DNA of 60,172 nucleotides, from NCBI GenBank assembly GCA_016899975.1, contig JACJJN010000021.1, forward strand, positions 1 to 60,172, read 5' to 3'. The DNA is from Lacrimispora saccharolytica (GTDB lineage Bacteria; Bacillota; Clostridia; Lachnospirales; Lachnospiraceae). The notes under the pieces were generated by a model. The model had not been told where the DNA came from and made no database searches. It worked only from the letters and a program-made list of their open reading frames with translations. A program made the translations under genes and the position numbers. Positions 7,586-8,747 of this stretch are shown here, in pieces (positions within the stretch are counted from its first letter, which is position 1; each line of letters opens with the position of its first letter).

Positions 7586-7595
7586 CCCCGGAAAA

Positions 7596-7643
7596 ATGAA
7601 TGAGAGCGCAGCCGGTTTTCTTACCTGCTGCGCTCTTATTCAT
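7596..7643 (-). terminator. hairpin terminator, T-run on the minus strand
   Basis: GAATGAGAGCGCAGC pairs with GCTGCGCTCTTATTC (one wobble). On the minus strand the stem is followed by ATTTTTCC; on the plus strand it is followed by A residues. It therefore looks like a second terminator for a minus-strand transcript, although it may also halt the plus-strand operon. Confidence 0.6.
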
Positions 7644-7750
7644 AAAAAAACAGAAAGATATTTGGCAGGTGTGCCCCTTCCCGCATTTCTTTTGACCCAA
7701 AGGGTGCGTAGCAGCACAATCTCTACTTCAAATATCTCTCTGCTTAACGT
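7644..7750 (-). ncRNA. candidate small structured RNA, about 107 nt
   Basis: A complete transcription unit without an ORF is visible on the minus strand. There is a promoter at 7757-7785, then a sequence closed by a 14-bp stem pairing 7729-7742 with 7651-7664 (one G-U). Seven T residues follow directly. Inside the stem, TGTGC/GCACA, CGCA/TGCG and CCC-TTT-GGG can form further nested helices. It lacks the GGAAGGAAGCAGCC loop of SRP RNA and is too short for 6S RNA. I could not assign it to a family I know. Ends are inferred from the promoter and T-run. Confidence 0.55.
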
Positions 7751-7756
7751 ACTCCT

Positions 7757-7785
7757 ATTATAGCGCTTTTATTCCTTTTTGTAAA
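7757..7785 (-). promoter_or_regulatory. strong promoter of the candidate small RNA
   Basis: Minus-strand TTTACA and a perfect TATAAT are separated by 17 bp. It points into the structured RNA and away from any coding gene. Confidence 0.65.
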
Positions 7786-8055
7786 GTACACTATTTTTTC
7801 CCATTAAACTGCTATTTTTTTCTATCGTTTTTCTTAGATTACGCTCACGAATTCTATAAAATGTCATTACAGAATTTTTCAAACCTTTTTCATCTATTTC
7901 AAGTGCAATCCTCACAACAACATTCAGATTAGTACCTTGTAATTTTTTCTCAAAAAATCAGGTACATTCCTTTGTTCAAAATGCTCATACCAGTGACATA
8001 CTATCTTGTATGCCGAAAGGAAACGAGGAAAGAGTACCAAGCACTGTTTTCGGCA
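7769..8055 (-). pseudogene. AT-rich gene relic, frameshifted
   Basis: On the minus strand an open frame without a start codon contains HWYEHFEQRNVPDFL. It then loses frame at a run of six T, and continues in another frame through NVVVRIALEIDEKGLKNSV and FYRIRERNLRKTIEKN to a stop at 7769. Joining the frames with one inserted base gives about 95 plausible residues. I do not recognise the family. Base composition is far more AT-rich than the surrounding genes, which suggests imported DNA. Its 3' end overlaps the small-RNA promoter. Confidence is low because it may not be coding. Confidence 0.3.
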
Positions 8056-8143: not shown

Positions 8144-8566
8144 TCAAAATTTCTCTGCTACAAAGACCATATCGCCCTCATGATAAATCTCCAAGAAACA
8201 TTCATGGAATTTGCCATTAATTGTAATATAGCCGCTATATTTTGTGCAATTGTAGCCGTAGGTTTCGTCCATTACTGTAAAGCCAAGTGTGGGATTTGCG
8301 GAGAGAAAGTCTTTGAGGAATAGCTTTTCTCCCGAAAATGTTCCACTATTTCCACTAAAAGCAAGAAGATATGCATAACTGTAATCCCACCGAACATTAT
8401 GAAATTCCACATATCCGTCCGGCTGTCCATATGGAAATTCCGTCTCCACAAGACCGGACTGTGTACGCAAAATAATATCATTCCCCACAACATCAACAGA
8501 GAGAATATTCATATCATGCAGGCTATATGCAGCATGGGTATTTTCACGAATTGTTTTTTTCATCAT
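8144..8566 (-). CDS. hypothetical protein, 140 aa
   Basis: A small acidic, apparently cytoplasmic protein of beta-rich composition (VDVVGNDIILRTQSGLVE, FHNVRWDYSYAYLLAF, GKFHECFLEIYHEGD). No catalytic motif is recognisable. Size and composition are reminiscent of small immunity or SMI-type proteins, but this is only an impression. The start is set at the double ATG at 8566; the upstream RBS is weak. It lies 7 bases after the stop of the small membrane protein gene, so the two form an operon that ends at the hairpin at 8090-8127. AT-rich relative to neighbours. Confidence 0.6.
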   Translation of the reverse strand: MMKKTIRENTHAAYSLHDMNILSVDVVGNDIILRTQSGLVETEFPYGQPDGYVEFHNVRWDYSYAYLLAFSGNSGTFSGEKLFLKDFLSANPTLGFTVMDETYGYNCTKYSGYITINGKFHECFLEIYHEGDMVFVAEKF

Positions 8567-8573
8567 AGTATCT

Positions 8574-8747
8574 CTAGAGCCAGTTAGAAGGATTAAAGAA
8601 TTCTGAAAAGAATGTCCAAAATATATCTTTGAAGTTTTCCTTTCGGTTCTGCTTTTTTGAAAACAAAGCACGAATAAAAGCAATCAGTAAACACGCAGGA
8701 AAACACAAAATAAATACCAATAAGACGACTAAAATAACGTCCCGCAT
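8574..8747 (-). CDS. small membrane protein, 57 aa
   Basis: One hydrophobic N-terminal segment (MRDVILVVLLVFILCFPACL, then LIAFIRALF) is followed by a basic stretch SKKQNRKENFK and an aromatic C-terminus. The ATG at 8747 is preceded by GAGGGTGGT. It is the first gene of a two-gene unit with the 140-residue protein. No family is recognised; a small membrane protein acting with its downstream partner is inferred from the tight spacing. Confidence 0.55.
   Translation of the reverse strand: MRDVILVVLLVFILCFPACLLIAFIRALFSKKQNRKENFKDIFWTFFSEFFNPSNWL

Follow-up and report, generated by a model that had tools for sequence, protein, structure and literature searches.

The window, a stretch of 60,172 nucleotides from Lacrimispora saccharolytica, carries on its minus strand a small RNA gene of the skipping-rope family (Rfam RF02924), for which no published function was found in the searchable literature. 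Skipping-rope RNAs are here linked to PBECR2 and PBECR3 domains, a link that is new, and the association between toxin and RNA is strong. As judged from the sequences compared below, the family probably serves as an RNA antitoxin (immunity RNA) for PBECR RNases, with toxicity and its neutralization as predicted properties, and the window RNA is probably an orphan member of the family, next to the remnant of a toxin gene. Among the matches listed in the literature on skipping-rope, PBECR, MuF toxins and type III systems, in the portions of these sources that were available, no connection between the skipping-rope RNA and PBECR was mentioned.

The small RNA gene and its fold

The features of the locus, in coordinates of the window, are as follows.

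7772 to 7969, minus strand: remnant of a broken PBECR-type toxin gene, C-terminal part only (tblastn and our own PBECR model)
7757 to 7785, minus strand: sigma-70-type promoter TTTACA-17-TATAAT, 11 of 12 matches, predicted start near 7750
7592 to 7750, minus strand: predicted transcript, from the promoter and the terminator hairpin (fold z -7.3), both ends inferred
7657 to 7736, minus strand: skipping-rope RNA core, Rfam RF02924, 60.3 bits with a gathering score of 36.7, E 5.4e-12
7651 to 7742, minus strand: P1 closing helix, arms 7742-7729 and 7664-7651, 14 bp (family core 8 bp)
7708 to 7726, minus strand: P2 hairpin, arms 7726-7723 and 7711-7708, loop 7718-7714 UGUGC (Rfam alignment, covariation)
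7689 to 7706, minus strand: P3 hairpin, 7706-7702 with 7698-7695 and 7689 (Rfam alignment)
7665 to 7684, minus strand: P4 hairpin, arms 7684-7680 and 7669-7665, loop 7674-7670 GCACA, which pairs with the P2 loop
7592 to 7643, minus strand: likely terminator hairpin 7643-7596 with U-tract to 7592, read from the sequence and its fold

No match other than that to RF02924, which Rfam types as an sRNA gene, exceeds a gathering score anywhere in the 60 kb of the window, and no second skipping-rope copy was found in the host genome. An earlier note on this DNA had proposed an unassigned small RNA gene, transcribed from the minus strand by its own promoter and distinct from SRP RNA and 6S RNA. The promoter, the strand and the exclusion of those two RNAs are borne out, the single Rfam match being to another family, and the same match replaces the label "unassigned". 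In agreement with the note, which saw no ORF inside the gene, none of at least 60 aa overlaps 7592-7785 on either strand. When the 171-nt strand of the RNA gene was folded, its energy was -69.6 kcal/mol compared to -42.0 ± 3.8 kcal/mol for 200 shuffles (z -7.3); the 80-nt core by itself is less striking (z -2.6), with five of the 200 shuffles folding equally well.

The 14-bp closing stem that the note described is present, followed by seven T at 7650-7644 and then by a second hairpin that ends in ATTTTT. The note took these two elements for tandem terminators. Only the second is retained as the likely terminator, because a hairpin and T-run often trail these RNAs, while the first T-run simply trails the closing helix P1. 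Among the 104 RNAs with enough flanking sequence, the window RNA included, a GC hairpin with a T-run was found within 90 nt after the RNA for 64 (2.6% of shuffles), and a promoter score of at least 9 within the 60 nt ahead of the RNA for 61 (5.7% of shuffles). A simple terminator scanner did not list the hairpin at 7643-7596 and named a weaker site at 7590-7575, which the flank scan of the 104 RNAs also chose for the window. Skipping-rope RNAs often have a recognizable promoter and terminator of their own.

For the structure of the family, 107 RNAs (106 distinct sequences) were aligned to a covariance model of our own. All eight pairs of the P1 core show changes on both sides somewhere among these sequences, bearing out a closing stem that covaries; P4 is 99.4% paired, and the closing C-G pair of P3 is invariant (106/106), with the inner P3 pairs weakly kept (49-63% paired). 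Changes on both sides occur somewhere in 20 of the 23 pairs. The covariation score of 0.588, compared to 0.169 for shuffled alignments and at most 0.106 for slid ones, is favored by the fitting of this alignment to the structure under test. Pairing of at least 3 bp between the P2 loop and the P4 loop, forming a pseudoknot, is possible in 104 of the 106 distinct sequences, with a mean score of 10.8 compared to 8.0 ± 0.17 when loops are swapped, and the paired sequences differ among RNAs (GGC/GCC, UGGU/ACCG, UGUGC/GCACA, CGUACG/CGUACG). The window RNA thus has the features of RF02924: a score above the cut-off, the closing helix and three covarying hairpins (weakly in the inner part of P3), and the pseudoknot. 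The Rfam 14 paper, in the part available, uses skipping-rope to illustrate pseudoknot display (PMC7779021).

The note had nested the inner helices into a rod. Its helix TGTGC/GCACA (7718-7714 with 7674-7670) is instead the loop-loop pairing of P2 and P4, and its helix CGCA/TGCG takes up a strand that P4 uses in the family fold. For the window RNA the rod has the lowest predicted energy, but as a conserved fold it was rejected: over the 107 RNAs its inner pairs are formed in 49% of cells and the inner helices of the family fold in 84% (gaps counted as unpaired). For the 16 RNAs of the window's own subtype the two folds are close, at 89% and 93%.

Distribution of the RNA and its linkage to PBECR domains

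The occurrence of skipping-rope RNA is patchy: it was found above the cut-off in 24 of 150 genomes of the host's bacterial family, in 27 of 398 genomes of the phylum, and in two of the seven genomes of the host genus. Fourteen well-known control genomes contained neither the RNA nor PBECR2/3. Pattern scans of viral sequences covered some RNA subtypes only and turned up 62 loci; the model confirmed 59, and three (L033, L043, L047) were dropped for want of a match. One viral scan gave zero loci. By BLAST the window RNA had no match among plasmids and one real match among phages (MT835941). One paper, as far as its accessible text goes, counts skipping-rope as 1% of all non-coding RNAs on phage fragments (PMC8501573). 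Tandem RNAs are present at eight loci (L038, L040, L044, L057, L078, L091, L108, L120).

The gene directly upstream of the RNA often ends 20-60 nt before it and encodes a PBECR2 or PBECR3 domain, a predicted metal-independent RNase that stands alone (approximately 120-140 aa) or occupies the C-terminal end of a larger head protein of a phage. Solo PBECR genes occur in bacterial genomes, viral contigs and plasmids. In a set of 84 upstream proteins, Pfam identified PBECR2 in 42 and PBECR3 in 38 (overlapping sets), Phage_Mu_F in three and Phage_min_cap2 in five, and further MuF proteins were found behind orphan RNAs. A hidden Markov model of our own was built from such upstream proteins, the Pfam naming being independent of it, and was applied from 1 kb upstream to 0.7 kb downstream of each RNA. 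An intact domain was detected at 57 of the 107 aligned RNAs (four of them counted twice through tandem RNAs) and a partial or stop-bearing domain at 12, some partial domains being cut by contig ends. Two of these 69 domains are downstream on the opposite strand and the remainder upstream on the same strand. The alignment, kept to 100 sources, omitted 21 viral loci with 22 RNAs, only one of which has a PBECR domain, so its rate taken alone flatters the toxin reading; for all 129 RNAs there are 58 intact and 12 partial domains (70/129). Named genomes were scanned for a pattern of the window's subtype, and 113 loci matched, 80 of which were taken and 70 of which have at least 420 nt of upstream DNA. 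At these 70 loci, some of which overlap loci counted already, 37 intact and four partial domains were found, all of them upstream on the same strand. The PBECR partners have an invariant histidine (29 sequences) and, by eye, a C-terminal T/S, and a predicted RNase with such a histidine and C-terminal T/S is described in the available part of PMC5512222. A profile search of solved structures with a PBECR toxin gave weak matches to ribosomal protein uL23 and nothing better.

When the search was reversed to start from the toxin, the RNA adjoined 20 of 22 PBECR2/3 places in the 150 genomes of the family (the misses being G084 and a weak partial match in G135); for the 398 phylum genomes the count was 17 of 25. 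The phylum misses consist of genes with open frames of 693-2356 aa (G357, G399, G260, G294 and one of two in G469), the second gene of G469, G525 with its RNA 1.9 kb away, and the marginal G478. Over both sets, 10 of 47 places are without an adjacent RNA, small genes among them (G084, G469, G525); where the open frame is shorter than 600 aa, the RNA is beside 37 of 42 and not beside five. Twelve PBECR loci were rescanned for the RNA with filters off, by which G491 gained one (counted among the 17 of 25); the best match apart from this one (E 0.088), close to the 1413-aa ORF of G357 but on the strand opposite, was left uncounted.

A prospective test by tblastn with the toxin protein alone yielded 14 plasmids and one more, and the RNA was beside the toxin in 15 of 15, scoring above the Rfam cut-off in 14 and found in one by our own model at 60 bits. 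The hosts are Fusobacterium (seven), Bacillus (four, including pTA1060), Priestia (two), Planococcus (one) and Treponema (one), spanning Bacillota, Fusobacteriota and Spirochaetota; the 15 amount to about five independent cases because many are near relatives. Searches of plasmids with the L120 toxin protein and of phages with that of L117 gave no match, and Streptococcus phage Javan254 was left out, its record ending at the stop codon of the toxin. Toxin and RNA converge in G429 and in five plasmids of Bacillus and Planococcus, and in pTA1060 of Bacillus subtilis the convergent RNA has a promoter and a terminator of its own; such loci argue for a separate transcription unit. Also carried by pTA1060 is the Bacillus-plasmid RNA RF01691, which is encoded on the strand opposite the skipping-rope RNA and approximately 95 nt away from it (L341:1919-2138).

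After removal of four second tandem RNAs, distances between toxins and distances between RNAs were correlated over 53 pairs (rho 0.64; none of 2000 permutations as high), and also inside toxin clusters (rho 0.62, compared to a maximum of 0.33 in 1000 permutations). With near-identical toxins excluded, an RNA and its nearest neighbor shared a toxin cluster in 51 of 53 cases, compared to approximately 34% by chance. The comparison of fused with solo toxins, in which L032 was labeled solo without a clear gene call, gave no support (rho 0.18, permutations up to 0.30). The co-variation supports a pair and does not prove contact, because linked genes co-vary somewhat anyway.

The toxin remnant of the window and other orphan RNAs

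The functional clue at the locus is the upstream toxin remnant, which the earlier note missed. It lies 33 nt upstream of the RNA, matches residues 515-573 of a 573-aa protein of locus L108 by tblastn (E 8.75e-18), and covers positions 67-117 of our PBECR model with one in-frame stop and a 7-residue insertion; its 48-aa piece by itself has no Pfam match. Within 1 kb upstream, no N-terminal part of the toxin was detected, where the predicted catalytic histidine would be located, and the window showed no sign of a MuF part. The ORF of 179 aa that lies upstream of the remnant (8144-8683, minus strand) has no Pfam match at E 0.001. Inside P1, the core of the window RNA has three differences from the RNA of L031, which sits behind a Phage_Mu_F protein whose PBECR domain was detected by our own model only; all three are in P4, and pairing is preserved.

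The best explanation of these sequences is that the window RNA is an orphan copy whose toxin partner has decayed and whose helices and promoter are intact. That this particular copy is a functionless relic, decaying like its toxin, is possible and would fit the dead remnant, the single copy in the genome and the presence of the RNA in only two of seven genomes of the host genus; we consider it doubtful, given a promoter with 11 of 12 matches, intact helices and three core differences that are confined to P4 and all preserve pairing.

Orphans are numerous, with no recognizable PBECR domain near 59 of the 129 RNAs or at 29 of the 70 named-genome loci (about 40-46%), and some of these RNAs may therefore have another role. 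Some of them sit behind MuF proteins without a PBECR match. The genes flanking 80 orphan RNAs were clustered, and no specific partner recurs in the 25 largest clusters, the foremost being HTH-like (seven loci) and integrase-like (five loci), both named by eye, followed by clusters of two or three loci. In our interpretation, RNAs without a toxin resemble orphan immunity genes.

Several unusual neighbors were noted. At locus L040 (5678-7910, minus strand), two small ORFs and two skipping-rope RNAs accompany a MuF protein whose toxin domain is Ntox50, and the locus looks like a case in which the toxin was swapped and the RNAs were retained. In L095 (7999-8588, minus strand), a skipping-rope RNA is located 19 nt behind a gene for the type III toxin CptN (NCBIfam NF047359, E 1e-45), and a leader ahead of cptN may, by eye, be the antitoxin of cptN itself; CptN was rejected as an alternative partner, having been found once only and perhaps having its own leader. 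An orphan RNA lies 93 nt behind a Csm6 gene in a type III CRISPR locus (L103:8033-9527, minus strand), and others are beside PIN genes. In the viral loci L075, L078 and L091, single or tandem RNAs are located behind related 214-aa proteins in which no PBECR domain was seen and which probably account for the three sigma-70 region 4 matches among the 84 upstream proteins.

Proposed function and comparison with known systems

An antitoxin function is suggested by the logic of the distribution, because RNAs persist without the toxin, few small toxin genes lack the RNA and tandem RNAs occur. The contact between the P2 and P4 loops would fold the RNA into a surface that binds the cognate RNase and blocks its active site; because no antisense match to the starts of solo toxins was found, the folded RNA most likely acts by binding the protein directly. 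A carrier of the RNA would survive toxin that it makes or receives, and cells that lose or lack the RNA would be damaged. On plasmids this could amount to addiction, and in phages to self-protection of the lysogen combined with attack on non-immune cells, while orphan RNAs may continue to protect against phages and plasmids that bring the cognate toxin. At some loci a protein could be the immunity factor, since a survey of MuF toxins, in its available part, found small ORFs downstream of 89.4% of 191 toxin genes and regards them as immunity genes (PMC5576092).

The tight linkage and the co-variation would also be expected if the RNA served the PBECR nuclease as cofactor or guide in an active ribonucleoprotein, but a cofactor would not need to be kept where the toxin is broken or absent, as the RNA is in the window with its promoter and fold, nor would two copies be expected at L040, where the MuF protein ahead of them bears an unrelated toxin domain; this arrangement is unlikely. 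Being separately encoded, the RNA could also act in trans to repress synthesis of the toxin by base pairing with its mRNA, as in type I systems. There is no excess complementarity in the 70 nt around the starts of solo toxins, the only part of the genes compared (z 0.08 ± 0.80, n = 33), conservation resides in a fold with loop-loop pairing, and closely similar RNAs serve both large fusions and solo genes, all of which makes repression by antisense pairing very improbable. The many RNAs with no toxin nearby (29 of 70 and 59 of 129) could instead be regulatory RNAs or phage genes that are independent of the toxin and merely travel with it on mobile elements. Against such co-travel, the toxin is usually beside the RNA in the reverse direction (20/22, 17/25, 15/15), and no specific partner recurs in the largest clusters of orphan flanks, so we give it little credence.

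For the RNA antitoxin that is preferred here, a broader interpretation is that skipping-rope constitutes a new class of RNA immunity against PBECR RNases of phages and plasmids, including virion toxins that are predicted to be injected, and that orphans are kept as immunity; the balance tilts slightly in its favor. If the proposal is true, an orphan RNA family (RF02924) acquires a function, the PBECR RNases, whether part of phage head proteins or carried by small plasmids, acquire an immunity partner, and an RNA-antitoxin system exists with a toxin family other than those of type III. The presence of the pair on pTA1060 makes the question simply testable in Bacillus subtilis.

By score, helices and pseudoknot, the window RNA is a member of RF02924, whose RNAs are approximately 70-110 nt in size. 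Like the type III systems ToxIN, CptIN and TenpIN, the relatives of the window RNA combine a predicted RNase gene with an adjacent pseudoknotted small RNA, in plasmid and phage contexts and sometimes with tandem RNA copies; in the window only the broken remnant is adjacent. Type III systems have one promoter; according to the available part of PMC5086642, an array of short RNA repeats precedes their toxin, with a terminator between them. Here, the toxin is PBECR2/3 by Pfam and not of the ToxN, CptN or TenpN kind, and the RNA, which often has a promoter to itself, follows the toxin or converges on it and is present in one or two copies of approximately 80 nt. Because the toxin family and the gene order and promoter differ, the PBECR/skipping-rope pair is not filed under type III, although its mode of action would be similar. 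The partners resemble the PBECR domains of phage polyvalent and MuF proteins in their matches to Pfam PBECR2 and PBECR3 and in the histidine and C-terminal T/S noted above, and differ in that an RNA partner is proposed, whereas no immunity partner is named in the available part of PMC5512222. As in the MuF polymorphic toxins, a C-terminal toxin on a phage MuF protein would be followed by a small immunity determinant, which the accessible text of the MuF survey seeks as a small ORF and which is here proposed to be an RNA.
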